64,000 nt of DNA from Marinagarivorans sp. (GTDB lineage: Bacteria; Pseudomonadota; Gammaproteobacteria; Pseudomonadales; Cellvibrionaceae), in assembly GCA_028281865.1 (NCBI GenBank), contig JANQJB010000052.1:1-64000 (forward strand). Direction: 5' to 3'. A program made the position numbers and the translations under genes. The notes under the pieces are model-generated. The model worked only from the letters and a program-made list of their open reading frames with translations. It did not search any database and was not told where the DNA came from. This document shows, in pieces, positions 3,465-27,965 of the stretch (its first letter is position 1; each line of letters starts with the position of its first letter).

Positions 3465-3490
3465 GTGATCGTAAATTTGTTTTCTAAACC

Positions 3491-3597: not shown

Positions 3598-3623
3598 GTG
3601 ATTGTAAATTTGTTTTCTAAACC

Positions 3624-3710
3624 TTCCATGGTGCTTGGTTCCGGTCCGGCCTTCCCTGGCCGGCCGCTGTTTGAGTGCGAAGCTTGCTTCGCAAAAAACA
3701 CTCAAACAGC
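3624..3710 (-). repeat. Palindromic insert, copy B, between tRNA-Arg 5' fragments
   Basis: This 87-bp unit starts with TTCCATGGTGCTTGG and folds into hairpin CCGGCC/GGCCGG (3646-3663) and a nested hairpin with 11-bp outer arms CTGTTTGAGTG/CACTCAAACAG (3667-3677, 3699-3709) around GCGAAGC/GCTTCGC (3677-3692). The inner stem and the following A-run are conserved with copy A, whereas the outer stems differ and keep pairing. Confidence 0.7.
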
Positions 3711-3729
3711 CCAGCTGGGCTACGGGTGC
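3711..3729 (-). pseudogene. Truncated tRNA-Arg 5' fragment 2
   Basis: These 19 bases match the first 19 bases of tRNA-Arg with two differences (GGGC for GAGC, GGTGC for GGCGC), so the acceptor strand and D-arm begin the same way but have drifted. It is cut at the same point as fragment 1, directly abutting palindromic insert B. Confidence 0.65.
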
Positions 3730-3799
3730 TTAAAAAAGAACGCGGGATTTTACTCTTGACGGTTGGAAAGGTCCAGTTTGTTTGATGTGCACTTTTGTA

Positions 3800-7201: not shown

Positions 7202-7268
7202 AAACTTCAATTGCCGATGGAGTGATTAATTTAATGGGGTAATAGCGATAAACACGTGAGTTTTTATT

Positions 7269-10200: not shown

Positions 10201-13200
10201 CGACTTCCGGAATTGAATTACCGGATGCAGGATTAACCATTCCAGGTAATTTATCGCTTACAGCGGATTGGATTCACAATATTTCTTTAGCCAATACAAT
10301 TACAGTCAATGCGAATCGCCTAACGCTCGATAGCCCATTTTCCATGGGCGACCTGACCGTCACGTCGCAAATAAATGAACTGGATGCAACTAACAGCGGT
10401 ACGAATACGTTAATTTTAAACGATGCGGATTCATTTAATATTGTTAATTTTCAAAATACCAATATGGGAGGAATGACTTTTGGCACGGCCGCAGGGCAAG
10501 ACTTGACAATTAGTTCTGCAGTTGAACTTGATGGGCAGCTAGGCAATATACAATTTAATTCCGGCAACGATTTATTTGTCAATGCAAATATTAGCGATAC
10601 TGTGGGTGGGAACGACGCAGATGCGATAATTACGTTAACTGCGGCAAACAATTTTACCATTGCCGATGGCGTAACGGTTGATGCTGGCATCGGCGAGTTA
10701 AATATTGTCGCGACGTCGGGTGACGCAACTATTACCGGAATTCGCGCCAATGACGCTGGCTCAGTGGTTAACGTTACAGCGGGTGACCAAATTCTCGATG
10801 GTGGGGATTCAAACCTTGATGTGGATTACGAGGGTTTACTCACCTTAATAGCACAAAATGGTGTGCTGGCAATTGAGACAGATGTCAGTGATCTTTCAAT
10901 TACTAATGGTACGAGTGGAAATGTCGAAGTTGTAGACGATAACGATATTAGCCTTCAGACGCTTAACGTTGTCGGTGACGCCACCATTAGTTCAACTGGA
11001 GGTCGTATTCGAGTTTTAGAATCTGCGCCGATGGTTAACAACCTAACATTAAACTCGCTGCAAAGGACGCAAATTCCCGCCGCCGGTTTAACCATTGCAA
11101 ATAATTTAACAATTAATTCGGGGTCGCTTGTTGATTTAACTGGCGCGGGCAATGTAAACATCACCGCAAATCAATTTGATTTAAATACAGCGCAAGCGGC
11201 AAATGATGTTGTTATTAATGCGAGTGTTAATTCGCTAAATTTAACCAATAGTGGCGATAATCGCATTGATTTTATTGACACTGACTTTTTTACCTTGCTG
11301 GGTGTACAAAATACCGGTAACGGTACAAGCTCTCTTCAATCTGTAGGTGCTAACGACATTACCATTAGTTCGGCTATCGATTTAGACGGCCAAAGTGGAA
11401 CCGTCGAAATTATTTCTGGCAACGACTTAAATATAAATGCAGCTATTCAGGATGCAACAGGTGCGCGAGATAGTACGGCCAATCTTGTATTAACTGCTGG
11501 GGCTAATTTGACCATTGCCGATAATACGGTTGTCGATGCCAATACCGGCAGCATAACGGTTACTGCAACAACTGGCTCAGCGCGTGTCACTGGCTTGCGT
11601 TCCTCTGGAAACTCCGCTGCTATATCAATTACTGCGGCAAATCAAATTTTAGGCAACGGAAATAGTTTGGTTGATATTCAGACGGATAATGCTTCAGGTA
11701 TGGGTGTACTGACACTCAATGCGCAAAATGGCATTAGTGATTTGCAAACCGACGTCGATATTTTAAATTTAACCAACGCCACTAGTAGTGACGTGACGCT
11801 TTCCAATAATAAAGCGCTCGAACTGGCAACATTTAGTGTCCCAAATCTTGCGACTTTAAATGTGAATGGTGATTTAACGGTTACCGCCGCCAATTTGACA
11901 GGTAATGATATTGATTTGATTAGTACTGGCGATTTTATTGCGCTGGATGCTGGCATCGTGGCATCGAATAATTTATCGATTACTGCAAATGATTTTAATA
12001 ATCAGTCCGCAACCGGTGCGCTCAGCATTGGTGCAAACCAGCTCACTTTAAATAGTGGCGCGTCCAATGGCGACCGAACGATTACCGCTCCGATTGCGAG
12101 CATTGATGTGACTCACAGCGGTACAAGTCGCTTGGCTATTTTAGACAGTGATTTTTATAGTTTACTTAATTATCAAAATACCGGAACTGGAATTCTTGCG
12201 TTGGGCACGACCGCTGGCAATAACTTAACCATAAGCCAGGCTGTCGATCTCGATTCACAAACAGGGACAATTGAATTTGTTGCAGGCGCAGATTTGACTC
12301 TTGATAACAGTATTGCCGATACAACCGGTGCGGATGATACAACGGCGAGTGTAATCCTGCGCGGTGCTAACAATACGCGCATTACTGATGGTCGATTTGT
12401 CAGAACACCAACGGGAACTATTAGCGTTATTGCGGGCACTGGTGATGCTACGATCACCGGTTTGCAGTCTGGAGCCAATGCTAATGCGGTGAGTGTTACT
12501 GCCGGAGGATCAATACTTGATAGCGGTGATGCTGCAACCGATATCGTTGCAGGTGACGGCGTTAGCACGGGCGAGGTTATTCTCAGTGCTGCGACTGGGA
12601 TGAATGGCTTAGAAATTTCGGCGGCTGCCTATTCAATAACAAATACAACCAGCGGAGATGTGAGCTTTACTGACAATTCCGATATAACTATTACCGGGTT
12701 AAACGTTGCCGAGGGCGCTACATTTGATGCTGCGGGTAACTTGAGTATGCTTGCCTCACCTGTTGCCGTTGATGACTTAACATTAATTAGCGTCGGCACC
12801 ATGACATTACCGGATAGTGGTGTGAGTGCGACGGGAGAATTAAATTTAACAGCCGCTTCGATCATTGATCAAGCAGCCACGGGTGTTTTAGCGCTTGGGG
12901 CAGATCAATTAACCTTAAATACAGCGCAAACGGGTGGTGATCTGCTAATTAATTCTACGATTAATACTTTGCTTGTTAATCATTCGGGTGCTAATGAATT
13001 ATCCATTTTAGATGCCGATCAATTTAATATTATGGATATTCAAAATTCTGGTAACGGAACATTAGTACTGGGTTCTCAAGCTAATCAGAATTTTGTCTTG
13101 GGTGCAGATTTAGATTTGGACGCGTTGACTGGAATTATAGAAATACGCGGTGGCGGTGATTTGACTGTAAATGCAAATATCGCTGATCTAACTGGGGCGG

Positions 13201-16133
13201 CTGATAGCTCAGCAAATTTAATTTTGTCGGCCAGGGATAACTTGCTTATTAACGGTCTTCAAACGGTAGACGTCGGTGCTGGAACTTTGCATGTTGTAAC
13301 CACTAATGGCGACGCCACGATCGCCGGCCTTACATCGACCGCGGATGCCAACGCAATTTCCGTTATTTCTGGAGGCTCGATACTGGATGGTGGTAACCAA
13401 GTTGCGGATATCCGCGCTGGTAGTGGTGCGGGCACAGGTCAAGTAACACTGAACGCACAAACGGGTATTAATCAAATTAATGTGGCTGCTTCGAGCTTGG
13501 ATATTACCAACGCAGTGAGTGGCAATGTTGTTGTTATTGCTGATAATGACTCAACCGTGCAAACTCTTGATGCTGCGAGTAACGTTGAAATTCAAGGGGC
13601 AGGAAATTTAACGCTTGCTAATTTACCCGTTAACGTGGCGGACTTAAATCTTAATAGCGCGGGAACCTTAACTTTGCCGGATGCCACATTAACTGTGGGA
13701 GCTAATGATCTGACGTTAATCGCCGATCATATTACCAACCAATCAGCCTCAGGTAGTATTTCTGTTAGCGCAAATCAACTTAATATTAATACTGCGCAAT
13801 CGGGCGGCGATTTAACCGTTAATACAAGTATTGCCAATCTTGACGCAGTTCATAATGGTAGTAATACGCTTACAATTCTCGATGCTGATTTCTTTACACT
13901 GGCAAACTTTCAAAATACGAATACCGGTACGTTGCGCTTAGGTACAAGTGCCGGTCAAGACTTAACGCTTGCAAGTAATGTTGATTTGGATGGGCAACAA
14001 GGCTCGATTGAATTTCAAGCAGGGCGCGATTTAATTGTAAATGCGAGCATTCAGGACTCCGTTGGTGCAAACGATAGTACAGCGAATCTAATACTGCGTG
14101 GCACGAACAATGTAACCATTGCAAATGGTGAGCAAGTTGTTAGTGGTGATGGAAGTTTGGAGATTGTTGCTACTAACGGAAATGCGACGATAAGCGGCTT
14201 GCAATCCAATAGCAATGCAATTCGTATTACTGCAGGCGGCCAAGTTTTGGGATACGGTAGTGGCGACTATCTAACGTCTGCGGGTTTAGATATTTCGGCC
14301 CAGACGGGCATCGTTAATTTATCAGGTAGCGCGGGTCGCTATTCAATCATCAACAGTGTCAGTGGCGATATTGCAATTACCGATAGCGGTTCGATGATTG
14401 TAGATGCGCTAACGAGTGCCGGACTTGCGCAGTTAACGGCGGTTTCAGATATTCAATTTAATTTTGCCAACTATAGCGCAAATAGTTTGGATCTTGTTGC
14501 CGGCAATTTAATTAATATTGGTGATTTAAATCTTCAGGTTGACCAAGACCTTACGATTGACGCTGTTAATATTCAATCTAATAACGCGTCAATTGGCCTT
14601 ATCGCAAATAATGCTGATATTACTTTGAGCGATGCGATAAACAACCTATCTTTGGCAACAACAGTCAACCAGATTGATCTCGATGTTCAGGCACCTTCGA
14701 CAGTAGTCAATGCCACCGCAGGTTTAAGTGTGGGCACTTTGAACAGTGCTGGTGCTATCGAGTTAACATCAAACGGCGATATTCAATTTATGCAAAATGC
14801 AGTCAACACAATGGGCTTGTTGACGTTAAATACTAACGGTGCTGATATCGTCGTTCCCGAAGTCGGCGGGTTGGTTTCGCTAAGTGCTCTGAATATTACT
14901 GCGGCGGAGATTCGTGATTCTGACGGAGCGGTTGCGTTGAGTGCTCCGGTCGCAACGCTCAATTTAACTGGTAGCAGCCAACAGGTAGATTTGAATGTTT
15001 CGTTCGATCAGTTGGCGTTAAATTATGGCGGGACACACAATATTAATATTGTTAACGATAAGTCCTTGGCTATTACCGCGTTTGCTGCGCCTAACACCAC
15101 TTCGATTGGAATCGATGCCTCTGGGTTACTGGACTTTGTTGGCACTGCTGTGACGACCACAGGGCGATTAAATGTCACTGCAGAATCGTTGCAACACAAC
15201 TTGGTTGGTAGTTTGTTTACCGCCGATCAATTAAATTTATCATTAACTAATGCAACTAACGCCGCTGGCTTTGATACGACTGTAAACGAATTAGATGCTT
15301 CCATTGTTGGGCATGACTTATCTATTGATAATCAGGGGCAATTACAGATTGTCGATTTAAATAACGACGGCAACGGCGCAAGTGTTACTGATGGCAATTT
15401 AAGTCTATCTAATACAAGTGGGAATATTGTCGTTAATAGCGATATTACGGGAACTGATTCTACAAACAATCAAATACAAACGGGGCGCTTGAGTTTAATC
15501 GCAGATGCGGGTGATATACTCATCGGTTCGCAAGGTAACACCGTAAATGTGAATTCGACGAGCAGTGATTCGCTCGCACCGAATATCGAGATTCGACTAA
15601 ACGATAATTCGCAAACATCTCGCCAAATCATTGTGGCTGATGGTTCATCAGTCAACGCGATCGGCGGTGATATTTTAATTGATACACTTGCGGGCTTGTC
15701 GAGTGATCCAGATTCCGGGGATTTTGAACGTACGATAGAGCTGCTCGGAACCGCAAAAATCAATGCCTATAACAGTCTTAATGATGGAATTACAGGCACG
15801 GTATTTTTAAATGGCGAGCCCGTTACTGATTTTAGCGGCGTTGATGCTTTTGCTGGCCGGACTATTTCGCTACTGGCGACTAACCCCCCGGAAGAAATTA
15901 TTACAGTTCCAAATGATGCGATTCACGATAATACTGACCTTTCATTGGTGCAACCTGTAGAAACTGCATCCCCCGGTGAAGATGCTAGTACGCAATTTGA
16001 TTTGGCATTTGGAAAATGTGTTGCGGCTGGAGATGAAGATGATCAAAGCTGCCGCATTCACAGTGCAGTGAAAAAGTTTTTATCGCGATGGCTGATCGGA
16101 GGTGAAATGCCACCCAAAATAGAGAGACCGTAA
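7269..16133 (+). CDS. Giant TpsA exoprotein/adhesin with haemagglutination activity domain
   Basis: A 2954-residue secreted protein. Signal peptide about 1-35 (hydrophobic stretch to VMALPKG). The TPS recognition domain follows (36-200) with NRVIGENLSEIYGNINANG and VFLVNPNGLLFG, the NPNG hallmark of this family. Most of the rest is beta-helix-like repeats rich in Asn, Thr, Ile and Gly, including about seven copies of a 288-residue unit. The C-terminus has two cysteines (KCVAAGDEDDQSC) followed by AVKKFLSRWLIGG; a similar terminal Cys pair anchors HMW1-type adhesins to the cell, so this protein may stay surface-bound. No toxin domain is seen at the C-terminus, so it is not a CDI/CdiA-type effector. 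Cotranscription with tpsB and the downstream YfiR-like gene is likely. Confidence 0.93.
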   Translation: MQYRANHQTKLKKNTLSLAVAFASCVLSSGLVMALPKGGTVVGGDASIEPSNNTLNINQNSSRAIIEYQDFSIAAGENVNFYQPGANSIALNRVIGENLSEIYGNINANGTVFLVNPNGLLFGAGSQIDVGGLVATTLDVSNENFMSGEFHFASDRSSSIVNNGSIKSAGNVALISSDIVNNGDINANSVQLQSARAALIQTQGSGIPILVEAEAVSGFIQNNGSVQAENIHIDAAVENAMLNNVVENNGLIRAVSASGEGGKIIISGGAGDVTNIGVISVHGDDANAGEIEIVSGRISQAGRLDAAVTGEGDGGKILLNAENKIALQNESEATVDADKNGDAGSIIAFSPDTTLFRHDAKLSARGGEQAGDGGFIEVSGIQLVEALGEVDLTSPMGQPGLWYIDPIDINIEVAGSDNTFSGGNWDPNGTTGTATIDRDSLETALQSGDVTINTNTGTGGTGNININAGIDLNGTPSNVVLSLIADNDINVASGVQFTDSAPGSNEQVDINFNAGNDINFAANSGADTSGGVIDISLVAGNDINLADSVSIDAFNGQIALNAGNNANITGLIADFNDSQANPAVSIIAGNKITDSGDTATYDIDLGSADAKYIRLQAANGIEGLETDGIRFLIKNTNSGIVEINEEDGVRIFELDVVGTAIINAGNLVTSNINIEPDAVATFNADNLTLNTPNAPVNIADGFTLNVSGTVNITADSINYDTDPSNTFNINATTLSVTGAFTNGNTTFNTTVDNFNLVNTGTNNIIVNEADALNLTGIDTNGGDVNFSTSAGNNLTVSGDIDLAGVANATLNSGNDLIINANIRDVGGANSTNLDLIASNDVTIGDGYIIDAGTGDIEVTATSGSATITGLVASGAGTLATIVAGDQIIDGGDSARDIDFGSTGTLVLSAANGILGLETVINVLDITNTTSGNVEINEQGFTVVQTLNVAGDATITSDSARIRILETAPTVNNLTLSTPTSGIELPDAGLTIPGNLSLTADWIHNISLANTITVNANRLTLDSPFSMGDLTVTSQINELDATNSGTNTLILNDADSFNIVNFQNTNMGGMTFGTAAGQDLTISSAVELDGQLGNIQFNSGNDLFVNANISDTVGGNDADAIITLTAANNFTIADGVTVDAGIGELNIVATSGDATITGIRANDAGSVVNVTAGDQILDGGDSNLDVDYEGLLTLIAQNGVLAIETDVSDLSITNGTSGNVEVVDDNDISLQTLNVVGDATISSTGGRIRVLESAPMVNNLTLNSLQRTQIPAAGLTIANNLTINSGSLVDLTGAGNVNITANQFDLNTAQAANDVVINASVNSLNLTNSGDNRIDFIDTDFFTLLGVQNTGNGTSSLQSVGANDITISSAIDLDGQSGTVEIISGNDLNINAAIQDATGARDSTANLVLTAGANLTIADNTVVDANTGSITVTATTGSARVTGLRSSGNSAAISITAANQILGNGNSLVDIQTDNASGMGVLTLNAQNGISDLQTDVDILNLTNATSSDVTLSNNKALELATFSVPNLATLNVNGDLTVTAANLTGNDIDLISTGDFIALDAGIVASNNLSITANDFNNQSATGALSIGANQLTLNSGASNGDRTITAPIASIDVTHSGTSRLAILDSDFYSLLNYQNTGTGILALGTTAGNNLTISQAVDLDSQTGTIEFVAGADLTLDNSIADTTGADDTTASVILRGANNTRITDGRFVRTPTGTISVIAGTGDATITGLQSGANANAVSVTAGGSILDSGDAATDIVAGDGVSTGEVILSAATGMNGLEISAAAYSITNTTSGDVSFTDNSDITITGLNVAEGATFDAAGNLSMLASPVAVDDLTLISVGTMTLPDSGVSATGELNLTAASIIDQAATGVLALGADQLTLNTAQTGGDLLINSTINTLLVNHSGANELSILDADQFNIMDIQNSGNGTLVLGSQANQNFVLGADLDLDALTGIIEIRGGGDLTVNANIADLTGAADSSANLILSARDNLLINGLQTVDVGAGTLHVVTTNGDATIAGLTSTADANAISVISGGSILDGGNQVADIRAGSGAGTGQVTLNAQTGINQINVAASSLDITNAVSGNVVVIADNDSTVQTLDAASNVEIQGAGNLTLANLPVNVADLNLNSAGTLTLPDATLTVGANDLTLIADHITNQSASGSISVSANQLNINTAQSGGDLTVNTSIANLDAVHNGSNTLTILDADFFTLANFQNTNTGTLRLGTSAGQDLTLASNVDLDGQQGSIEFQAGRDLIVNASIQDSVGANDSTANLILRGTNNVTIANGEQVVSGDGSLEIVATNGNATISGLQSNSNAIRITAGGQVLGYGSGDYLTSAGLDISAQTGIVNLSGSAGRYSIINSVSGDIAITDSGSMIVDALTSAGLAQLTAVSDIQFNFANYSANSLDLVAGNLINIGDLNLQVDQDLTIDAVNIQSNNASIGLIANNADITLSDAINNLSLATTVNQIDLDVQAPSTVVNATAGLSVGTLNSAGAIELTSNGDIQFMQNAVNTMGLLTLNTNGADIVVPEVGGLVSLSALNITAAEIRDSDGAVALSAPVATLNLTGSSQQVDLNVSFDQLALNYGGTHNINIVNDKSLAITAFAAPNTTSIGIDASGLLDFVGTAVTTTGRLNVTAESLQHNLVGSLFTADQLNLSLTNATNAAGFDTTVNELDASIVGHDLSIDNQGQLQIVDLNNDGNGASVTDGNLSLSNTSGNIVVNSDITGTDSTNNQIQTGRLSLIADAGDILIGSQGNTVNVNSTSSDSLAPNIEIRLNDNSQTSRQIIVADGSSVNAIGGDILIDTLAGLSSDPDSGDFERTIELLGTAKINAYNSLNDGITGTVFLNGEPVTDFSGVDAFAGRTISLLATNPPEEIITVPNDAIHDNTDLSLVQPVETASPGEDASTQFDLAFGKCVAAGDEDDQSCRIHSAVKKFLSRWLIGGEMPPKIERP
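9031..14300 (+). repeat. Seven diverged ~865-bp internal repeats of tpsA
   Basis: The phrase encoding A-G-[DN]-x-I-x-D-x-G-D recurs near 9031, 9915, 10780, 11632, 12501, 13369 and 14231, giving periods of 884, 865, 852, 869, 868 and 862 bp (about 288 residues). Each unit also contains LDITNxTSGNV-, ADxFNIxxxQNT- and DLDGQxGxIEFxxGxDL-like segments in the same order. Copies have diverged strongly, so frequent recombination between them is unlikely. Confidence 0.75.
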
Positions 16134-16715
16134 ATGCACGCATTAAAAAAAATTACATGCATATTGTTTGTCTTGGTGTCGACAGTTTTTTTGGCTGTTG
16201 TTGCTAATGCTAATCAGCAAGATGCAGAACGAGCTGTTCGTGCTCAATTCGTTTACAATTTTGCCAACTTTGTTGAATGGCCGCAAAATGCATTTGCTTC
16301 GGAAAGCGATCCAATTAAAGTTTGTTTGTTCGGCAAAGTTTTTTTTGCGCCATTTTTATATGCTTACGAGGGTACCTTAATTGGTTCTCGCAAACTTCAG
16401 GTAATGCAAACAGATACTTTTCAGGAAATTCGGTCTGGCTGCCATATCTTATATGTTGGCGAAGATCAGCGTGTTCGTCTGCCAACGTTCTGGAAGCAAA
16501 TTAAATATATTTATGTTTTGAGTATAGGTGAGCGTCAGGGTTTTGCTGATAAGGGTGGAATTATCAATATTATGCGCACGAGCGATCGCTTGCAATTTGA
16601 TGTCAATATCGAAAATGCTATTTCAAACGGTCTATTTTTAGATTCCGATTTGTTAGCTATTGCACGTGTAATTAAGCGCAATACACAAGAATCAAAACAA
16701 AATGAAGCACCTTAA
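16134..16715 (+). CDS. YfiR-like periplasmic protein (DUF4154)
   Basis: A 193-residue protein with signal peptide 1-26 and the YfiR/DUF4154 signature: RAQFVYNFANFVEWP near the start of the mature protein, VCLFGK, GCHILYVG, and GGIINIMRTSDRLQFDVN-IENA near the end. YfiR of Pseudomonas binds and represses the CHASE8 sensor of the diguanylate cyclase YfiN in the periplasm and responds to redox. C64 and C103 here are 39 residues apart, matching the C71-C110 disulfide of YfiR as I recall it; a second Cys pair is absent. The ATG follows the tpsA stop with no gap, so translation is probably coupled. The next gene has a CHASE8-like domain, the natural target. Confidence 0.88.
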   Translation: MHALKKITCILFVLVSTVFLAVVANANQQDAERAVRAQFVYNFANFVEWPQNAFASESDPIKVCLFGKVFFAPFLYAYEGTLIGSRKLQVMQTDTFQEIRSGCHILYVGEDQRVRLPTFWKQIKYIYVLSIGERQGFADKGGIINIMRTSDRLQFDVNIENAISNGLFLDSDLLAIARVIKRNTQESKQNEAP

Positions 16716-16759
16716 TATTTTTAGAGTTTGCAACCTCTCGCGCCTGAAGAGGTAGGTTC

Positions 16760-18742
16760 GTGCAAATTCAGTTTCGTGATCTGCCGATCCAGAAAAAAAT
16801 ATCGCTTGTCATTATAGTGGGAATGACAAGCGCAACAATTATTGCTCTGGCAAACTTTATTACTCTCGATCGCATGAGTGTTAAACGCAATTTGTCGGAG
16901 GAAATGCGCGTACTAGCACAAATTACAGCGGCGCGCAGCGCCGTTGCAGTTTCATTTGACGATGTTTCCAATGCTACAGAAAATTTAGCGACTTTGTCTC
17001 TTCGTTCTACTATACAATATGCCTGCATTTACGCGGATAACCGAAAACTATTTGCTCATTATCAACGCGAAGAAAATATAGGTGTCAACTGCGAAAAGGA
17101 ATTCAAAGAACCAGCGCAACCTTATGTTTTTAGTAAAAAATATCTTCATGTTTACGAGCCGATAACCCGGCGAGGTTCGGTGCTGGGTTTTTTGACTGTG
17201 ACTTCTGACCTTTCGCCAATTGTTAAACGCATGCAGCAATGGGTGTATACCGGGATAATTGTTGTTATTGCTGCAGTATTAGTGGCGTTTTTATTTACAC
17301 GCCGCATGCAGAAAGCTATCGTAACGCCAATCGTTAATTTGGCAGAACTGATGGACAGGGTAAAGCGAGAAAACGATTTAACCTTGAAAGCGACACTTAT
17401 TGGAAAAGATGAGGTCGGTCATTTAGTTGAAACGTTTAATGAAATGCTTGCAATTATTTATAACAATAATAAGGATCTTCAAATTCTCTATCGTGAACTG
17501 GTCGAAAAAAGTGCCGAAGCAGAAAAAACTGCAGCTTCACTTGAGGTTAGTAATAAACACATAAAAGATCTTTTTGGTAGTGCCGCCCATGATTTACGTC
17601 AGCCGTTGCAGGCCATTTCCATTTTTGCCGATACTTTATTACGACAAGTTGATAGCGAAAGTCAGCGTGATGTCATTCATAAACTGAAACAATCGCTACA
17701 GAATTTGGGTGATTTGTTTAACGAGATACTCGATGTATCGCGCTACGATTTTGATTTAAGTGTTGTTGGTACCAAACCTATGCCAATTAAGCCGCTTATT
17801 TTGAAAGTCTCGACGGAATTTGAAGCTATGGCGCAAGACAAAGGTTTGCGACTTAAATTTCATACCGTGGACTATACCGTTGTTGCTCACGCTGCTTTAT
17901 TAGAGAGAATTATTCGCAATTTGCTAAGTAATGCTATCCGTTATACTGACAGTGGCGGAATACTTTTAGGGTGTCGTCGGCGCGGTGAAGAATTAGCGAT
18001 CGAAGTGTGGGATACAGGTTGCGGCATCCCTGATCAAAAAATCGATACGATATTTAGTAAATTCGTACAAGCGAATGATCGAGAAATAGGGCATAGAGGC
18101 GGATATGGCCTTGGGCTGGCAATTGTCAAACAGTTTGTTGATTCGTTAGGTTATAAGATATCTGTGATATCTCGCGTTGGACATGGTACCGTTTTTCGTC
18201 TGCTGGTGCCTTTGGTTGATGTTAGCGAAGATCAGCGCAGCGATACACAATCATTTAAGGCTATCGAGGAAGGCCAAGCGCCTAAAGGAATTAACAAAGA
18301 AATAGATCAAAGCGACCCCGGTTCTAGCTTGCCGACGATGACAGGTGATTCGCTAATTGGAACGCTTAAGACACAGCGCTCGGCGATATTGCTTGACGAT
18401 GACCAGGAAGTTACTGATGCACTTAGTTTATTACTGCAAAACATTGGTATGGAAACTCATGCCTTCGTTTCTTTTGATGAGTTAAAAACCTATGTAGATA
18501 GCGAGGATTTCGACCCTCCTGACATCGTTATTTGTGATTATCAACTGGGCGACCAATTTAATGGCGGAGAAGTCATTGAACAAATACGTCAGGTTGTCAA
18601 CGAAGATTTAGCGGCCTTTATTATTTCTGGTGCGTCCGACGACGAAGTTTGGAAAGAAATCCAAGACACGGGAATTCCTTATTTGCGCAAGCCTGTAAAG
18701 CCCGCCCGTCTAAGAGCAATGATTAATCATGTGCTGGGTTAA
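16760..18742 (+). CDS. Hybrid histidine kinase with CHASE8-like periplasmic sensor
   Basis: A 660-residue membrane protein. TM1 about 15-35; periplasmic domain 36-160 with LAQITAARSAVAVSFDD, close to the CHASE8 sensor of YfiN/TpbB; TM2 162-180; HAMP about 181-235; coiled coil; HisKA with H277 (SAAHDLRQPLQ); ATPase domain with N-box NLLSNAIRY, DTGCGIP and GYGLGLAIV; and a C-terminal receiver with acidic DDD (545-547) and D593 (VICDYQL). The last module lets it act as a phosphorelay or self-quenching kinase. The start is GTG at 16760 with GAGG upstream. It lies 44 bp after the YfiR-like gene, so YfiR probably controls this kinase instead of a diguanylate cyclase. The cytoplasmic partner is not encoded next to it. 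Confidence 0.9.
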   Translation: MQIQFRDLPIQKKISLVIIVGMTSATIIALANFITLDRMSVKRNLSEEMRVLAQITAARSAVAVSFDDVSNATENLATLSLRSTIQYACIYADNRKLFAHYQREENIGVNCEKEFKEPAQPYVFSKKYLHVYEPITRRGSVLGFLTVTSDLSPIVKRMQQWVYTGIIVVIAAVLVAFLFTRRMQKAIVTPIVNLAELMDRVKRENDLTLKATLIGKDEVGHLVETFNEMLAIIYNNNKDLQILYRELVEKSAEAEKTAASLEVSNKHIKDLFGSAAHDLRQPLQAISIFADTLLRQVDSESQRDVIHKLKQSLQNLGDLFNEILDVSRYDFDLSVVGTKPMPIKPLILKVSTEFEAMAQDKGLRLKFHTVDYTVVAHAALLERIIRNLLSNAIRYTDSGGILLGCRRRGEELAIEVWDTGCGIPDQKIDTIFSKFVQANDREIGHRGGYGLGLAIVKQFVDSLGYKISVISRVGHGTVFRLLVPLVDVSEDQRSDTQSFKAIEEGQAPKGINKEIDQSDPGSSLPTMTGDSLIGTLKTQRSAILLDDDQEVTDALSLLLQNIGMETHAFVSFDELKTYVDSEDFDPPDIVICDYQLGDQFNGGEVIEQIRQVVNEDLAAFIISGASDDEVWKEIQDTGIPYLRKPVKPARLRAMINHVLG

Positions 18743-18825: not shown

Positions 18826-20382
18826 TTACCAAAATATTACGTATAAAATAGCGACGATTAGCGATAAGCCGAGAGCTATCAGATTAAATGCGGGGAAGGT
18901 GGTCGTGTGTTTCCCTGGAGCGGAAAATAAAAGTTTAGATCTCAATTGAGTTAAAAGTATCGTTGTGGCTATTGCAAAAACGTATGCAATGGCGATTCGA
19001 TTTAAAAAAGGAACTTCAGGGAAAGCAAAGTAAAGCAATATTGAAACAACTGTAGCAAGAATAAATATGTAGAGCGCGTGCTTTGTATAAGTGTTTTTTG
19101 TCAGCAAGCCCAGAGTAAAAACTGCACAGATACCTGGAATAAAAAAGCTGGCAAAATCCCAAATATAGCTTAGCGCTATATTATTTTTATTTATTGCAAA
19201 AGTTGCCGTCAGGGCGACTATTAATATAAAGGCGTTTATGACTCTGCCGAGCTTCAATAGATGATGTTCGTTATTATGTTGAGATATTGTAGAATACAAA
19301 TCAATAATGCTGAGCGTTGTTGTGGATAAACAAATTCCTGCAATTGTCGAGATGACGCTAACAAATAGAGCGAGTATCATCAGTGCTTGAGCGGCAATAG
19401 GTAGAGAAAAGAAGAGCGCTGTAAAATATCCGTGCTGTTCTATATCAGACCCTAAATACAAATGCGACAAAACGCCTGGGAGAATAAATAAAATGGGGAT
19501 AAAAAATTTGAGACATGCCGCAAACACTATTCCTTTTTGACCCTCCGCAATGCTTTTGGCGGATAACGCACGCTGAATAATTGCTTGATTGAAGCCCCAA
19601 TACCAAATATTGATTATCCAGATTCCGCCCAGTAGAGTAAATATTCCGGGTAAGCGATCGTAGTGCGGATTGTCAGGTTCCAATATAAGATGCAGCTTAG
19701 ATTTTACAATCGTAAGTCTGTTGTCAAGAGTTTGCTCAGGGATATTGCCTGCGAGGCTTAAGTAGATTACGCATGCTAATAAAGCTAATCCAGCAGTATA
19801 AATAATAGTGACATTTATCTTATCTATTTTCGCGATGCTCGATAATCCGCCTTGAAAAGAATAAACATAGGTAAATAGCAGCAGTGCTAAACAGCTAAAA
19901 ATTTTTTCGATACCCAGCAGAGTTTCTAGGATATCCGTTGAAATCCATAATAAATAGGGTAATGTGAAAAGTAACGAATAAATGATTGAAAATGACGAGA
20001 AAAACCATCGAAACCGAATATCAAAGCGCTGTTGCAAGTACTGCCCTAAGGTGTAATTACCCCGAGTATAAAATACCGGAAAAATATACTTCGCAATTAT
20101 TAGCATTGCAGGAATAGCAAGCCATTCAAATGCGGCAATAGCAAGACCAATGCGATAACCGTCTGTCGACATGAAAACGATGTGTTCTAACGAAATATTG
20201 ATTGCAACGAGAGACAATCCAACACTCCACCAGGACTGGTTACGCCCGGCGATGAAAAACTGCTTAAATGCTTTTGTCTCTTCTATCGCAGCAGGTTTAC
20301 TGTCAGTTTTGTTAATTGACAGTACAAGGTAGCCTATAAATAAGCAGTAGAAAACGATTAACAGAATGGCAAAAGTTAACAA
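18826..20382 (-). CDS. Sodium:solute symporter (SSS family), second of a tandem pair
   Basis: A 518-residue integral membrane protein with about 13-14 hydrophobic segments. Family marks include NISLEHIVF in an early helix, WWSVGLSLVAIN, the loop YWGFNQAIIQRALSAKS and AEGQKGIVFAA. It resembles the protein encoded just upstream (20459-22051), including the QxIIQRALxAKS motif, so the two are paralogues. It would take up a small organic solute, perhaps a sugar, with Na+; the substrate cannot be deduced. It lies 76 bp after the first symporter on the same strand, probably in the same transcript, and close to a LytS/LytTR two-component system. Confidence 0.85.
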   Translation of the reverse strand: MLTFAILLIVFYCLFIGYLVLSINKTDSKPAAIEETKAFKQFFIAGRNQSWWSVGLSLVAINISLEHIVFMSTDGYRIGLAIAAFEWLAIPAMLIIAKYIFPVFYTRGNYTLGQYLQQRFDIRFRWFFSSFSIIYSLLFTLPYLLWISTDILETLLGIEKIFSCLALLLFTYVYSFQGGLSSIAKIDKINVTIIYTAGLALLACVIYLSLAGNIPEQTLDNRLTIVKSKLHLILEPDNPHYDRLPGIFTLLGGIWIINIWYWGFNQAIIQRALSAKSIAEGQKGIVFAACLKFFIPILFILPGVLSHLYLGSDIEQHGYFTALFFSLPIAAQALMILALFVSVISTIAGICLSTTTLSIIDLYSTISQHNNEHHLLKLGRVINAFILIVALTATFAINKNNIALSYIWDFASFFIPGICAVFTLGLLTKNTYTKHALYIFILATVVSILLYFAFPEVPFLNRIAIAYVFAIATTILLTQLRSKLLFSAPGKHTTTFPAFNLIALGLSLIVAILYVIFW

Positions 20383-20458: not shown

Positions 20459-22051
20459 TTACCACCACGTCCAATAGATTGCTGCGAGTAAACTACTTAA
20501 TACAAGCGCACCAAAATTGAAGATATAGGAGGTCGAATAAGAGATAGCACCGAGCGTAATGGTTGGAGTTGGTGGAGAATCAATAACGGATTGCCTGTTA
20601 TCCCACATGCTTTTCAATATCGCAAAAGCCAAACAACTTATAAATACTACAACCATTCTATCCATAAATGGGAATTCGGGAAAAATGACGGTAAGACAAA
20701 GGGACAAGGCCAGTGAGCAGACTGTCGCACCAAAAGCGGCCTTTTCTGTTGTTTTTTTCCAAAACATTCCAAGCAAAAAGATCACTGTTATTCCGGGGCT
20801 AAAAAAGCCAACTGCGTCCTGAATATATTGAAATGCCTGGTCGAAATTACCAACGAGTGGCTGAGCGATGACAGCAGCGACAGTTATCGATATTGTGCTG
20901 ACAATACGCCCGACCTTTACCAGGTGCGTTGACGAAACATTCTTATTTTTTATCCATGATGCATACAAGTCCATCGTGAATATCGTTGAAAGGCTATTCA
21001 TCATCGATGCGATGGTTGAGACAACAGCAGCGAGCAAAGCGGCAAAGACAAGTCCTTTAAACCCGATAGGTAAAAGTTTCATCATTTCTGGGTAAGCTTG
21101 GTCGGCGACTTGGCCAGAGACTGTCAGATTCGGAACCAAATAGGCGGCGCAAATACCGGGGAGAACGCAGATTACTGGCATCAACAATTTCAGCGCGCCA
21201 GCGAATAGCATGCCCTTTTGTGCTTCATCAAGACTTTTGGCTGCGAGTGCACGTTGGATAATGTATTGGTTTAAACCCCAATAGAAAAGGTTGACGATCC
21301 ACATGCCTCCAACCAGAACTGAAATTCCGGGGACATAACGATAAAATTCATTATCCTTGCTTAAAATCAAATCAAACTTCTCTGGCATTGTTTCTGCCAT
21401 TATTTTTAAACCGGCATACACGCCTGAATTGTCGCTGATTTGGTTTAATGCGATATAGAGTGTAACGAAACCGCCGGCAATAAGTAGCACTACCTGGATA
21501 ATGTCTGTAAACGCCACTGCCTTAAGCCCGCCATACAGCGAATATGCGGTAGCGAAGCCTGCAAGCAGTACAATTGCAGTCGTGTTGCTAATGCCGGTCA
21601 TAGTGGTTATCGCAAGCGACCCAAGCCATAAAATGGATGTCAGATAAATGAAAACATAAGCGCACACCCAAAAACCTGCGACGAGGTTTTTAACGGATGT
21701 TCCGTAGCGCATCTCCAAGAATTGCGGCATTGAGTAAATTCCATTTTTCAGAAAAATAGGTAAGAAATATTTGCCAACAATCAAAATGGCAATGGCAGAC
21801 ATCCACTCGTAGGAGGCAATGGCAATTCCAATTGCGTAGGCTGATCCTGCAGTGCCGATAATTTGTTCTGTCGAAATATTTGCAGCAATTAAAGAACCGC
21901 CGACAGCCCACCAGGGCAGCGCTTTGCTTGCGAGGAAATAGTCTTTTGTATCTTTAGCGTGGTTTTTCTCGCGCGAAACCCACTGCGCAAGAATGAAGAT
22001 TGCAAACGCGTACAAACCAATAATAAGTAAATCGACGCCAGCAAGATGCAT
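20459..22051 (-). CDS. Sodium/sugar cotransporter, SGLT-type SSS family
   Basis: A 530-residue protein with about 14 transmembrane segments. Signature stretches are NISTEQIIGTAGSAYAIGIA, GGLKAVAFTDIIQ, YWGLNQYIIQRALAAKSLDEA and GMLFAGALKLLMP, all typical of the vSGLT/SGLT branch that couples sugar uptake to Na+. The start codon has GGGG well placed upstream (minus strand AAGGGGATTGCTATG). A 14-bp palindrome at 22086-22099 lies in the leader. The gene follows the LytTR regulator at 122 bp, so it is a likely target of that system, as with LytTR-controlled uptake proteins in enteric bacteria. Sugar specificity is unknown. Confidence 0.9.
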   Translation of the reverse strand: MHLAGVDLLIIGLYAFAIFILAQWVSREKNHAKDTKDYFLASKALPWWAVGGSLIAANISTEQIIGTAGSAYAIGIAIASYEWMSAIAILIVGKYFLPIFLKNGIYSMPQFLEMRYGTSVKNLVAGFWVCAYVFIYLTSILWLGSLAITTMTGISNTTAIVLLAGFATAYSLYGGLKAVAFTDIIQVVLLIAGGFVTLYIALNQISDNSGVYAGLKIMAETMPEKFDLILSKDNEFYRYVPGISVLVGGMWIVNLFYWGLNQYIIQRALAAKSLDEAQKGMLFAGALKLLMPVICVLPGICAAYLVPNLTVSGQVADQAYPEMMKLLPIGFKGLVFAALLAAVVSTIASMMNSLSTIFTMDLYASWIKNKNVSSTHLVKVGRIVSTISITVAAVIAQPLVGNFDQAFQYIQDAVGFFSPGITVIFLLGMFWKKTTEKAAFGATVCSLALSLCLTVIFPEFPFMDRMVVVFISCLAFAILKSMWDNRQSVIDSPPTPTITLGAISYSTSYIFNFGALVLSSLLAAIYWTWW

Positions 22052-22173: not shown

Positions 22174-22902
22174 TTATAGGCTTAGAAGCTTTTTTAGTAA
22201 TATTGATTGGCGCCGCGAAACCTCGACGTGTAGTCCTGGCGACAAGGTCAAAATAAAACCACTTGTGTGACTGCCACTAATCCTTTGAATGTGCGATAAG
22301 TTCACAATATGGTTCCGGCTCGCGCGAAAAAATAGCTCTTCAGGTAAACGTGCTTCGACATGTGAGAGTGCTCGATGTACAAAGGGCTTGCAGCCGTTGA
22401 AATAAAGGCGAGTATGGTTTTTACAACTTTCAAATAATTGAATTTCTTTTAAGCTAATCATGTGATGAGCTTCGCCGTCTTTTATATATATTTTACTTTC
22501 AGGAAGTAGCTTTGTTTTGAGTTCTGTATCAGTATCGCTTGAGCTTTCCGCTACGGACTGGCTGTTGAGTTTGCTAATCGCAACACGCAAGCGTTCATCC
22601 GTTATCGGTTTTAGCAAATAGTCAATTGTATTGTGGTCAAAAGCTTGCAATGCATATTCTGAATAAGCTGTCGTGAAAATTAATTTTGGTGCGTAAGTTA
22701 ATTTCTTTAGTAAATCAAATGCGGATTCACCAGGAAGGTGAATATCAAGAAAAATAAGCTCAGGTTGATGCAGTTGAATGAGCTTATGCGCCTCGTCAAC
22801 AGTAGCTGCTTGACCGATAAGTTTAATGTCTTGGTAGCTCGATAGCATGCTGACAAGACCTTCGCGCGCAATTTCAATATCTTCAACAACAAGCGTTTTC
22901 AT
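22174..22902 (-). CDS. LytTR-family response regulator
   Basis: A 242-residue protein. The receiver domain (1-120) has E7/D8, phosphoacceptor D53 (LIFLDIHLPG), T78 (FTTAYS) and K98 (LLKPI). A linker leads to a LytTR DNA-binding domain (about 138-240) with IQLFESCKNHTRLYF, RALSHVEARLP and FFRASRNHIVNLSHI, the conserved LytTR core. It overlaps the upstream pseudokinase gene by 4 bp (ATGA), so it is translationally coupled to it. Its phosphodonor is most likely the intact LytS-type kinase encoded two genes upstream. Likely targets are the two symporter genes immediately downstream; this is inference from position. Confidence 0.93.
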   Translation of the reverse strand: MKTLVVEDIEIAREGLVSMLSSYQDIKLIGQAATVDEAHKLIQLHQPELIFLDIHLPGESAFDLLKKLTYAPKLIFTTAYSEYALQAFDHNTIDYLLKPITDERLRVAISKLNSQSVAESSSDTDTELKTKLLPESKIYIKDGEAHHMISLKEIQLFESCKNHTRLYFNGCKPFVHRALSHVEARLPEELFFRASRNHIVNLSHIQRISGSHTSGFILTLSPGLHVEVSRRQSILLKKLLSL

Positions 22903-24014
22903 TTTGGGTTCTGATCAATAGGAAGAAAGAGGCGAATTATAATAACTGTGGAATCAAAAAAATCAATATAAGCACCAGAGTTGTAAGCCTTTTCTAAGCG
23001 AACGCGAAAGTTGAATAAACGTTCGCTATTTATTCTTTTTTCTAGGTTTTCTAAGAGGTTTGTTGTTTGTTTGTCGCTCTCGTTGCCGCTTATACAGAAT
23101 GTCGTCGTAAATTGATTCTCTTCTGCTTCACACCGGATTGCCAGTTTGACAGCAGGGCACATTGGTTGATCGGTTGAGGTGATGCCATCGAGTACAAGAG
23201 ATACGAGGGAAAATATCGACATTGGCAATAAAGATACGCTATCCATTTTATTCTGCGCATCTATTTCAATAGTGAGATTTTTTAGCGTGTTTATTTCGCA
23301 GTAAAGCTGAGTGTAGGCAGCTACTATTCTAATTTCGTCTGTTATTGCGATACGTTTGAGTTGACTTGTTTCGACCGCGTAACGCATGAGTGTTGCAAGT
23401 TGTTCAACGATGCTTTTCGCTAACAATTTGTTTGTAACGGCTTCTTTGGCAATTTTATTCAAGCACTGATCAATAAAGTTACTGCCGATAAAGCCCGCTT
23501 GAATACGAAACAACGCATTATCGAGCTCTTGCGAAAGCCCCAGTGTTTTCAAATAGTTGTTGTAGGTGGCTTGGACTTTTTCCAAACTAAAAAAAATGCC
23601 TATCCATGCAATTTGAATGAGGATGATTTGAGCTGTGTGCCATGCGGCAAATGAATTTGAAATTTGATTAGGTTTTAATAAAACTAAAGCATGTTCTAGA
23701 TTAAGTAGATGGCCAAGTTGAGTTGTAATCCATACGTTTAATACTGTGAATGCCGGTGATAAACCAACAATTAATACTGCTATTATTAGCTTAAGACTTT
23801 TTAAATGATTCCTAGATGAAAATAAATAATAAAAATATGTGAATAAACATGTGACCAAAATACCGTCTACGCTGAGGCTAGCCAAACTTAATATGTAGGT
23901 GCTTGCCATTGAAGATTGGGGATTGGCGAACGCCAGGATGATAGCACACCAACCTCCGAGCCACAGTGCGGCATAGATTTTAAGCTTTGTGTTAGTGAAG
24001 GAAATGTTCGCCAT
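22899..24014 (-). CDS. Kinase-dead LytS-like membrane protein
   Basis: A 371-residue protein with about four transmembrane helices (12-145), then a region aligning with His_kinase (LytS) domains but without any catalytic motif. Where the active kinase next door has SPHFLFNALNNL, this one has GSNFIDQCLNKI, so the phosphoacceptor His is Asn179. The N-box (LCENSIKHN in the neighbour) reads SLVLDGITSTDQ, and the glycine-rich G-box is missing. It is therefore probably a non-enzymatic partner that senses a ligand or modulates the active kinase. I take the ATG at 24014, which overlaps the upstream gene by 23 bp; the longer reading from 24092 would overlap by 101 bp. The gene is intact, so the loss is old and tolerated. 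Confidence 0.8.
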   Translation of the reverse strand: MANISFTNTKLKIYAALWLGGWCAIILAFANPQSSMASTYILSLASLSVDGILVTCLFTYFYYLFSSRNHLKSLKLIIAVLIVGLSPAFTVLNVWITTQLGHLLNLEHALVLLKPNQISNSFAAWHTAQIILIQIAWIGIFFSLEKVQATYNNYLKTLGLSQELDNALFRIQAGFIGSNFIDQCLNKIAKEAVTNKLLAKSIVEQLATLMRYAVETSQLKRIAITDEIRIVAAYTQLYCEINTLKNLTIEIDAQNKMDSVSLLPMSIFSLVSLVLDGITSTDQPMCPAVKLAIRCEAEENQFTTTFCISGNESDKQTTNLLENLEKRINSERLFNFRVRLEKAYNSGAYIDFFDSTVIIIRLFLPIDQNPK

Positions 24015-25035
24015 TGGTTTTTTTCGGGAAAATAATGAGTGTTGAAACTGTTTTAAAATGCTCTTTAAAACGGAAGCGAGCTTCGTTGCCATAGGCGAGA
24101 GTCAGCCGTTCTTCGATATTACGCATACCGAATTTTAGCGATTGCGCATCATCGGATGTAAAATTTAGTCTTGATGATGTAACGCGATAAACGATCTTAT
24201 TTTTTTTGTCTGCTATATGCACGCATAACTTTCCTGATGTTAAATGTTGCAAATTGTGCTTGATACTATTTTCACAGAGTAATTGAAGTAGCATGGGCAG
24301 CACATAGGTTTTTTTTGCGTGTGAAGAATCTAGAATGTTGATATTAAACTTGTTTCCCAGGTGCAATTGAATAAGGCGCAAGTAACGCGCTAAAAATTCG
24401 ACTTCGGTTTTTAAATTGATGAAGTTTTTATCGCTGAACGAATTTAATTCAGAAAATATTCCTGCAATGTCCCTGGCCATAACAGAGGCTTTTTGTGCGT
24501 CCATGTCTAACATAAAGCGTAAATTATTCAACGCATTAAATAAAAAGTGGGGGCTTAGCTGCTGCGACAAGACACGTATCTGAGCGTTGGCCGTCAACTG
24601 GCTAAGTTGATGTTGTTCTTTTTGCACTTTATTGGAGGAGTATAACAACAGTGCAACGATCGTAACGAGAAACCATGCGACTGTGATAATCAGAGCCTGG
24701 GTGGTGGTGTCGCTTGCAAGGTCAACCCCGTGATCGGCTAACGCAAATACACTAAAGGTTATTAGACTTGCTGTGATAAACAAACGAAGTATGGAGCTGC
24801 CCCGATGGTAGTCGACCCATAAATATGTCCCCATTAGCGCGACGCAAGTAAAGCTCAGAAGTGTTGATGCTAAGGTCTTATCTAGTGAGGTTGAGACCTT
24901 AGACGAGGATAAAATGTGAGAAAAAACGATTGTTGCAGCCAAGACCAGGAAATAAACCAGAATCGCCGTTATTAAGGAATAAGCCAACGGCAGTTTCCGT
25001 GGGCGCGATAGTGGGTGGGGGGTATTCTTGGTCAT
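23992..25035 (-). CDS. LytS/YehU-type sensor histidine kinase
   Basis: A 347-residue protein with about four membrane helices (residues 18-135), then a His_kinase domain with H163 in LSPHFLFNALNNL, and a HATPase region with N-box LLQLLCENSIKHNL (about 245-258) and G-box FGMRNIEERLTLAYG. All motifs needed for autophosphorylation in the LytS/YehU/YpdA class are present. It is the first gene of a minus-strand cluster: kinase, dead kinase-like protein, LytTR regulator, two sodium symporters. There is no large extracytoplasmic domain, so the signal is probably sensed within or near the membrane, possibly by a heterodimer with the dead partner. It is divergent from rpsF. Confidence 0.92.
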   Translation of the reverse strand: MTKNTPHPLSRPRKLPLAYSLITAILVYFLVLAATIVFSHILSSSKVSTSLDKTLASTLLSFTCVALMGTYLWVDYHRGSSILRLFITASLITFSVFALADHGVDLASDTTTQALIITVAWFLVTIVALLLYSSNKVQKEQHQLSQLTANAQIRVLSQQLSPHFLFNALNNLRFMLDMDAQKASVMARDIAGIFSELNSFSDKNFINLKTEVEFLARYLRLIQLHLGNKFNINILDSSHAKKTYVLPMLLQLLCENSIKHNLQHLTSGKLCVHIADKKNKIVYRVTSSRLNFTSDDAQSLKFGMRNIEERLTLAYGNEARFRFKEHFKTVSTLIIFPKKTNGEHFLH

Positions 25036-25232: not shown

Positions 25233-25703
25233 ATGCGTCATTATGAAATCGTGTTTTTGGTCCACCCTGACCAAAGCGAACAAGTGTCCGGCATGGTCGA
25301 ACGCTATTCCAATACTATCACTGGCAACGGTGGTACTGTTCATCGTTTGGAAGATTGGGGTCGACGCCAGCTGGCCTACCCGATCAACAAAATCCACAAA
25401 GCCCACTATATCTTGATGAATATTGAGTGCGGTGATGAGACTCTAGAAGAAATTACCACAAACTTTCGCTACAACGATGCGGTGTTGCGTAATATGGTGA
25501 TTCGCTGTGACGAGGCCGTCACAGAAGAGTCTCCAATCATGAAAGCGGAAAAAGAGAGCCGCGAGCGCAAACAACGCAGTGAGTCTCGCCCCGAGCAAGA
25601 CGACGAGGCAGTGGTTGAAGCCAGCGATGATGTTGTCGATGTCGAGGAAGATTTACCTGAAGACATTGACGAAGAAGTAGAAGCAGAAGGTGAGGAGGAC
25701 TAG
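25233..25703 (+). CDS. rpsF: 30S ribosomal protein S6
   Basis: A 156-residue protein starting [18 protein letters not shown], with the S6 core [20 protein letters not shown]. It binds 16S rRNA with S18 in the platform of the small subunit. The C-terminal 45 residues are a long, highly acidic tail ([20 protein letters not shown]), about 25 residues longer overall than in E. coli; E. coli S6 is modified by glutamate addition at its C-terminus, so an acidic tail is in keeping. AAGGAG lies 7 nt before the ATG. It is first in rpsF-rpsR-rplI; priB, present between rpsF and rpsR in enterics, is absent. A small CCGC/GCGG hairpin at 25195-25205 lies in the leader. Confidence 0.98.
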
Positions 25704-25706
25704 ATC

Positions 25707-25934
25707 ATGGCCCGTTTTTTTAGACGTCGTAAATTTTGTCGTTTTTCCGCAGAAGGTGTTAAGCAGATCGATTACAAAGATCTCGACACATTAAAAGCTT
25801 ATATCTCCGAGACCGGCAAAATTGTGCCGAGTCGGATTACTGGTACGAAAGCGAAATACCAGCGCCAATTGTCCTCGGCAATTAAACGCGCACGTTATCT
25901 TGCCTTACTACCCTACACCGATGCGCATAAGTAA
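25707..25934 (+). CDS. rpsR: 30S ribosomal protein S18
   Basis: A 75-residue basic protein, [17 protein letters not shown], with the conserved [20 protein letters not shown] segment. It pairs with S6 on 16S rRNA. Its length equals that of E. coli S18. It starts three bases after the rpsF stop, with GGAGGA inside the rpsF end, so it is translationally coupled. Confidence 0.98.
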
Positions 25935-25944
25935 GGAGTGAATG

Positions 25945-26391
25945 ATGGAAGTTATTCTACTTGAAAAAGTTGGTCGTCTTGGCACTGTCGGCGATAAAGT
26001 CACAGTAAAAGCTGGTTTTGGACGCAACTACTTATTACCGCAGGGTAAGGCCGTAACGGCTACTGCTGAAAATATTGCCGAGTTTGAGGCGCGTCGTGCT
26101 GAGCTTGAAAAAGCGGCGAATGAAAAGCGTTTATTCGCCGAGTCGCGTGCCAAACAGCTCGACGAGTTGATTGTTACGATAAAAGCGAATGCGGGTGACG
26201 AAGGAAAGTTATTTGGCTCTGTTGGCGCACGTGATATTGCAGCGGCAGTGACCGATGCGGGCGTTGAAGTGTCGAAAGCGGAAGTTAAATTGCCAGAGGG
26301 CACTCTGCGCGAGGTCGGTGAATACGATGTGGACTTGCAGTTGCATGTCGATGTTACCCAGTCTGTGAAAGTTGTCATTGAGGCCGAATAA
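25945..26391 (+). CDS. rplI: 50S ribosomal protein L9
   Basis: A 148-residue protein, [19 protein letters not shown], with the N-terminal globular domain ([15 protein letters not shown]), a long connecting helix and a C-terminal domain ([14 protein letters not shown]). It binds 23S rRNA at the base of the L1 stalk. Of two adjacent ATGs I choose 25945, because GGAG (25935-25938) is then 6 nt away and the protein begins MEV as in other L9 proteins. It lies 10 bp after rpsR and is followed by a strong terminator. Confidence 0.98.
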
Positions 26392-26427
26392 GCCAGCATC
26401 CGACACACGTCAGGCTTATACACTTTT

Positions 26428-26469
26428 AAAAAAAAGCGCGAGGGATATAATTCCTTGTGCTTTTTTTTT
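26428..26469 (+). terminator. Terminator of the rpsF-rpsR-rplI operon
   Basis: A run of A8 followed by GCGCGAGGGA pairs with TCCTTGTGC and T9 around a short loop, giving a long stem with an uninterrupted T-tract. The loop is TATAAT (26446-26451), a consensus -10 box that may serve the dnaB gene starting at 26487, although no clear -35 is seen. Confidence 0.85.
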
Positions 26470-26486
26470 CATATCTCTAAACCATT

Positions 26487-27965
26487 ATGAGTGATTATTC
26501 GGACGAAGTTCCCGAAGAAGTATCGGCTGCCACGCCCCTAGAAGGCCCGCGTGAAAACCTCCGTGAAGATCAACCTCACTTGCGGGGTGAGCCCTATGTC
26601 GAGCCTCCGGTCTCACTTAGTCAAACAGAACAAACACCGCCCCATTCAATCGAAGCTGAGCAATCGGTTATCGGTGGTCTGATGCTCGACGCAGGTCGCT
26701 TCGACGGTGTAAGCGAAGTTATTACCAGCGAAGATTTTTACAGCGCCGCTCACGCACTTGTCTTTCAGGTGATGGTGGATTTGGTCGAGCATGAGCAGCC
26801 CTTGGATATTATTACCGTGGCCGAGGAGCTACATAGGCGGGAGCAGCTTGACGATGTTGGAGGGCATGCCTACCTAAGTGAAATGGCTGAGGGAGTGGCA
26901 AGTAGTGCAAACCTGGTTGCCTACGCGAAAATCGTGCGTGAGCGCTCGACATTGCGACAGCTGATTCGCGCCACTGCCGAGATCAGTCGCGCAAGCTACA
27001 GCCCTGGTGAGCTAAGCTCCGATGAGCTGCTGCAGTTGGCCGAGCAGCGAGTACTTAAAATCTCTGAGGAAAGGCCCAAAACCGGCGGTTTTGAAGGCGT
27101 CAATTCACTGCTGAAAAAAACCGTTGCTAAAATTGATGAGCTTTTTCGTTCGGATAGCGACATTACCGGGCTCGCTTCTGGGCTGACAGATTTGGATGCG
27201 AAAACCTCTGGCTGGCAAAATGGTGAGCTTATTGTGCTCGCCGCACGCCCCTCAATGGGCAAGACTGCGCTGGCGCTTAATTTTGTCGAGGCGGGGCTAA
27301 TGACGCAGGACAAACCGGTTTTGGTTTTCAGTCTTGAGATGCCGTCAGACTCGCTGATAATGAGAATGCTCTCGTCAATTGGTCGTATCGATCAGACGCG
27401 CTTGCGCAACGGCCAGTTAACGGAAGAAGACTGGCCCAAATTGGAAGCAGCGGCAAGACGCATGAAGGATAAACTACTCTTTATCGATGATACGCCAGGG
27501 CTTTCGCCTGCCGATGTTCGGGCGCGCGTGCGTCGCATTGCGCGCGAACACGGCGATCCGGCACTGATTATGGTGGACTACCTGCAGCTAATGCAGATTG
27601 CCGGTCACAAAGAGGGCCGCACACAGGAAATATCTGAAATTTCGCGTTCGATGAAGGCGCTGGCGAAGGAATACAATTGCCCGGTCATTGCGCTATCCCA
27701 GCTCAACCGAGGTGTAGAGGCGCGCCCCAACAAACGCCCTATGAATTCTGATTTGCGTGAGTCCGGCGCGATTGAGCAGGATGCGGATGTGATTTTGTTT
27801 ATTTATCGCGATGAATACTACAACGAAGAGAGCCCAGATAAAGGCATTGCCGAGCTTATTCTGGGTAAGCAGCGCAACGGTGAGATTGGCACTGTGAGAG
27901 CGGCGTTTGTCGGCAAACATACACGCTTTGAAAACCTCGCTCCGGAATATATGCAGGAGCATTAG
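26487..27965 (+). CDS. dnaB: Replicative DNA helicase DnaB
   Basis: A 492-residue hexameric helicase. A divergent acidic N-terminal tail (1-50) precedes PPHSIEAEQSVIGGLMLD, the start of the conserved N-terminal domain. The RecA-like domain has Walker A ARPSMGKTALALNF (about 255-268), Walker B LIMVDYLQLMQ, and the DnaB motifs FSLEMP and SQLNRGVEARPNKRP-MNSDLRESG. It unwinds DNA at the fork with DnaG and DnaC or a loader. No intein is present. The start has no obvious Shine-Dalgarno, but no alternative ATG lies before the conserved domain. It follows rplI as in many gammaproteobacteria. Confidence 0.98.
   Translation: MSDYSDEVPEEVSAATPLEGPRENLREDQPHLRGEPYVEPPVSLSQTEQTPPHSIEAEQSVIGGLMLDAGRFDGVSEVITSEDFYSAAHALVFQVMVDLVEHEQPLDIITVAEELHRREQLDDVGGHAYLSEMAEGVASSANLVAYAKIVRERSTLRQLIRATAEISRASYSPGELSSDELLQLAEQRVLKISEERPKTGGFEGVNSLLKKTVAKIDELFRSDSDITGLASGLTDLDAKTSGWQNGELIVLAARPSMGKTALALNFVEAGLMTQDKPVLVFSLEMPSDSLIMRMLSSIGRIDQTRLRNGQLTEEDWPKLEAAARRMKDKLLFIDDTPGLSPADVRARVRRIAREHGDPALIMVDYLQLMQIAGHKEGRTQEISEISRSMKALAKEYNCPVIALSQLNRGVEARPNKRPMNSDLRESGAIEQDADVILFIYRDEYYNEESPDKGIAELILGKQRNGEIGTVRAAFVGKHTRFENLAPEYMQEH

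Follow-up and report, generated by a model that had tools for sequence, protein, structure and literature searches.

Bacterial histidine kinases are usually regarded as homodimers, and few natural dead partners are known. The stretch of Marinagarivorans sp. DNA analyzed here (the window: 64,000 nucleotides, positions 1 to 64,000 of contig JANQJB010000052.1) encodes a LytS-type kinase, a LytTR response regulator and, between them, a LytS-like protein whose catalytic motifs are gone. A second bacterium, only distantly related, carries the same set of genes, so that the LytS-like protein is probably a functional subunit and not the product of a broken gene.

Organization of the locus

The ORFs of the kinase, the pseudokinase and the LytTR regulator are all intact on the minus strand, and are followed by two symporter genes (Table 1). 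The longest ORF of the pseudokinase starts at position 24092 and encodes 397 aa, which brings its overlap with the kinase gene to 101 bp. When the ATG at position 24014 is taken as the start, the overlaps of 23 bp (kinase and pseudokinase) and 4 bp (pseudokinase and regulator) and the asparagine at residue 179 reported in the first-pass annotation are recovered, and these overlaps suggest that the three genes are co-transcribed. Pfam assigned both a receiver domain (Response_reg, 2.7e-15) and a LytTR domain (6.6e-18) to the product of the third gene, which is thus a LytTR response regulator.

Table 1. Genes of the putative sensory module and of the adjacent symporters in the window
Feature	Position	Strand	Characteristics
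LytS-type kinase	23992-25035	minus	347 aa; His163 in SPHFLFNALN; N-box ENSIKH; PF06580 1.1e-15
LytS-like pseudokinase	22899-24014	minus	371 aa from ATG 24014; PF06580 1.4e-5
LytTR response regulator	22174-22902	minus	242 aa; receiver and LytTR DNA-binding domain (Pfam)
vSGLT-like sodium/sugar symporter 1	20459-22051	minus	PF00474; vSGLT 2xq2 6.4e-146
vSGLT-like sodium/solute symporter 2	18826-20382	minus	PF00474; 2xq2 8.6e-79

Catalytic motifs of the two LytS-like proteins

Comparison with the PF06580 model (cut-off of 25.2 bits) gave 58 bits for the kinase, over model positions 1-81 and including the PHF of the H-box (SPHFLFN), as in a LytS-type kinase, and 25.7 bits for the pseudokinase. The match of the latter began only at model position 13, so its H-box end is missing; a PF06580 match by itself is no proof of a kinase. 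Both proteins were aligned with those of the module of NORP12 (see below) and with 33 other His-bearing LytS homologues, in every one of which both the PHF and the N-box EN are present. The pseudokinase reads GSNFIDQ where the homologues read N/S/R-PHFLFN, and its N, G1 and G2 boxes are absent. The description of this neighbor as a kinase-dead LytS-like protein with an open frame, in which Asn179 takes the place of the histidine, was therefore accurate: neither the phospho-acceptor nor the ATP-binding boxes are left, and it is by homology and fold (PF06580, the profile match and the GanS fold presented below) that the protein belongs to the LytS family.

The kinase had been called active because of its PHFLFN, N-box and G-box. 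The SPHFLFN and ENSIKH motifs are indeed kept, but both G boxes are degenerate, G1 (VTSSRLN) having a serine in place of Asn/Asp and G2 being reduced to SLKFGM, compared with xxGxGL, by loss of the first glycine. The kinase of NORP12 has the same two lid changes, and the N-box is kept in both. Recognizable G1, F and G2 boxes are also missing from AlgZ, a member of the same family (PMC4064291), so the degenerate lid is no proof of inactivity; the example of AlgZ suggests that the LytS family tolerates the loss of ATP-lid boxes. We infer, without being certain, that the kinase of the window is catalytically active with an atypical ATP lid of its own.

A second module in another genus

One orthologue of the pseudokinase was found, in the MAG NORP12 (G021), which belongs to another genus of the Cellvibrionaceae. 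The order and the direction of the genes are the same there: kinase, pseudokinase, LytTR regulator and vSGLT-like symporter. The identity between the window and NORP12 was 38.6% for the kinases, 31-32% for the pseudokinases, 59.7% for the regulators, and 40.9% for symporter 1 and the symporter of the NORP12 module. The kinase and pseudokinase genes overlap in NORP12 as well, by 1 bp (TAATG). At the site of the histidine, the NORP12 orthologue reads GEGFIAD, and it too is devoid of N, G1 and G2 boxes. Homologues keeping the histidine at this position had been named as evidence against a functional subunit; the lone orthologue has a glycine there and an open frame.

Comparison by region, which involves two modules from two genera with one species each, showed that the identity of the pseudokinases was 25% in the TM region, 45% in the DHp-like region and 31% in the CA-like region, while that of the kinases was 29%, 46% and 41% in the TM, DHp and CA regions, respectively. 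The reading of the dead protein as a functional subunit was strengthened in that the pseudokinase is conserved without decay and occurs, in two modules out of two, with a His-bearing LytS, a LytTR regulator and a vSGLT-like symporter; the atypical lid of the kinase weakens it. Upstream of the NORP12 module (L006:4103-6793), a putative AraC-like regulator gene and a putative Gfo/Idh/MocA-like dehydrogenase gene hint at sugar or polyol use.

Distribution of His-less LytS proteins

The PF06580 surveys covered 34 genomes of relatives, 75 of the class and 80 of the phylum, in overlapping draws that each included the window genome. Adjacent PF06580 matches occurred in these surveys only in the window genome (G000:C109) and in NORP12 (G021:C36), and apart from the two pseudokinases no intact LytS gene without the histidine scored above the cut-off, a match below the cut-off in G941 also being without the H-box end. 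Of the 53 loci that carry a LytS-like ORF, those carrying two all came from the places in the window genome and in NORP12. No further orthologue of the pseudokinase was found in 144 genomes of the family at 1e-8, where only ordinary His-bearing LytS appeared, in 390 genomes of the order at 1e-12 or in 369 genomes of the class at 1e-13. None was found among plasmids, and a search of GTDB contigs returned NORP12 only.

Two other candidates were rejected. The weak match in G006:C1 carries QPHFILN, with an ordinary histidine. The match in G542:C81 starts at position 14 of PF06580, but the gene is an ordinary AlgZ-like one with a frame break at the H-box, and it is therefore no further pseudokinase. 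This frame-broken gene (L081, about 3333-5399) lies beside an intact LytTR gene and reflects either decay or an assembly error. Our literature search found no paper joining LytS or LytTR with the term 'pseudokinase'.

Predicted fold and ancestry of the pseudokinase

The AlphaFold model of the pseudokinase, made with 25 sequences, had a mean pLDDT of 79, with values of 84-94 in the block of residues 181-280; since most rows of the alignment were His-bearing LytS, the model is biased towards the fold of the family. It consists of four membrane helices, a long helix leading into a DHp-like hairpin with Asn179, and a GHKL fold. The top fold match in the PDB was GanS (Z 13.7, rmsd 4.2, 168 aligned residues); by sequence, the LytS kinase also matched GanS in the PDB. 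An earlier model from two sequences, of poor quality (pLDDT 52), likewise pointed to GanS (Z 13.8, rmsd 3.2, 141 aligned residues). The pseudokinase is predicted to have kept the GHKL fold and not the catalytic motifs.

The profile of the pseudokinases aligned with ordinary LytS of the family over 303 columns, membrane helices included (E 1e-16), and more weakly with their own partner kinases (E 2.4e-4), while only the cytoplasmic part of the kinase profile aligned with the family LytS. Since each profile contains two sequences, this is no more than a hint that the usual sensor was retained in the dead protein while catalysis was lost. Both pseudokinases grouped together in the tree on a long branch whose placement is unsafe, including with regard to an origin by tandem duplication.

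The adjacent symporters

A vSGLT-like symporter gene directly follows the regulator gene in both genera, after a gap of 122 bp in the window and of 15 bp in NORP12. Both symporters of the window are closest to vSGLT, but symporter 2 deviates at two vSGLT motifs (LEH for A/TEQ and YIW for YIQ). No homologue of the regulator adjoined the other symporter loci compared from the family (about 1.5 kb on each side), no convincing direct or tandem repeats of the LytTR type were seen upstream of the operon and of the symporters, and the promoter and terminator scans performed no better than shuffles. As such repeats are lacking, it is the order of the genes that suggests control of the adjacent vSGLT-like symporters by the LytTR regulator.

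Proposed role of the pseudokinase

We consider it on balance probable that the kinase, the pseudokinase and the LytTR regulator form a sensory module in which the pseudokinase is a conserved subunit of a heteromeric LytS sensor, similar to FasBC-FasA. The pseudokinase would pair with the kinase via its DHp-like region, supply a sensory membrane domain and switch the kinase on or off. In turn, the LytTR regulator would be phosphorylated by the kinase and would then control the adjacent vSGLT-like sugar symporters. More tentatively, the sensor may be an obligate heterodimer in which sensing and catalysis are split between paralogues, the dead one retaining the membrane sensor usual in the family but neither the histidine nor the ATP site, and the live one providing the histidine and the N-box, with a diverged membrane part and lid, and the two jointly gating a sugar-uptake operon.

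The same anatomy equally predicts a negative regulator, which would form unproductive heterodimers or bind the kinase in the style of RetS on GacS, or would favor the phosphatase state, and would be released by the signal. RetS heterodimerizes with GacS and inhibits it, as cited in PMC12675982, and the phosphatase activity of CovS is regulated by RocA (PMC7380576). Overlapping genes in one operon, however, weakly suggest a roughly fixed ratio of subunits and not a separately controlled inhibitor, and we regard such a role as rather unlikely. It is clearly more doubtful that the pseudokinase acts without pairing with the kinase, as a homodimeric scaffold for the regulator or a symporter: DivL, which reads a phosphorylated regulator, is a precedent (PMC4211667), and the best kept part of the pseudokinase is the DHp-like surface, normally the dock of the regulator, but the gene order and the overlap with the gene of a LytS-family kinase favor pairing.

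Loss of all the catalytic motifs and a long branch could also be the marks of a decaying, functionless duplicate. This is very improbable, as the frame is open in two genera at 31-32% identity while the gene order and the DHp-like segment are conserved, and the probability that an unselected frame of 371 codons remains open at 40% GC is about 3e-11. Together with the recurrence of the module in a second genus, this value indicates that the open frame is not due to chance; a pseudogene or an assembly artefact was rejected on account of the open frames in two genera.

Comparison with known systems

The module is a variant of a known arrangement, dead or dead-like kinases that modulate live ones being already known. 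Judged by arrangement only, the nearest is FasBC-FasA of group A Streptococcus, a 'three-component system' in which one operon encodes a response regulator and two kinase-like proteins of the membrane; the window likewise encodes two kinase-like membrane proteins, one of them with a dead kinase domain, and a regulator. FasB and FasC heterodimerize in two-hybrid assays, the kinase domain of FasC is dispensable, FasC has been proposed to be a pseudokinase, and the regulator is FasA (PMC12675982). FasB and FasC have six TM helices, whereas four are predicted for the pseudokinase studied here. FasC keeps the phospho-acceptor histidine (H246) and the other partner gives the kinase domain, while our pseudokinase has lost the histidine too and, unlike in FasBC, the histidine and the catalytic domain sit in one protein.

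The gamma-proteobacterial BtsS/BtsR and YpdA/YpdB systems also consist of a LytS-type kinase and a LytTR regulator controlling a transporter, but they have one kinase per regulator, and a word search of PMC5552118 turned up no degenerate partner. In AlgZ/AlgR (PMC4064291), an unorthodox kinase of the LytS family whose G boxes are degenerate is paired with a LytTR-type regulator; unlike the pseudokinase, AlgZ keeps the H-box and part of the N-box and is a single sensor. DivL, RetS, RocA and the ChrS CA-frameshift pseudokinase are kinase-like proteins that act without catalysis of their own or via contact with an active kinase, but they are not encoded in an overlapping LytS-LytS-LytTR operon. 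To our knowledge, none of the four is LytS-type. An operon found in two genera, with a dead subunit that misses every catalytic box, offers a clean case of how much of a kinase serves sensing or dimerization alone.

Other genes of the window

A putative rpsF-rpsR-rplI-dnaB-like run (25233-27965, plus strand) lies on the opposite strand from the kinase gene and starts some 200 bp upstream of it. Beyond the symporters, a YfiR/HmsC-like protein adjoins a hybrid histidine kinase that has CHASE8 and HAMP domains and a C-terminal receiver (16134-18742, plus strand). The region 5561-16133 of the window encodes a ShlB-type two-partner secretion transporter (5561-7201, plus strand), followed by an ORF of 2954 aa (7269-16133, plus strand) whose product is probably the secreted substrate of that transporter.
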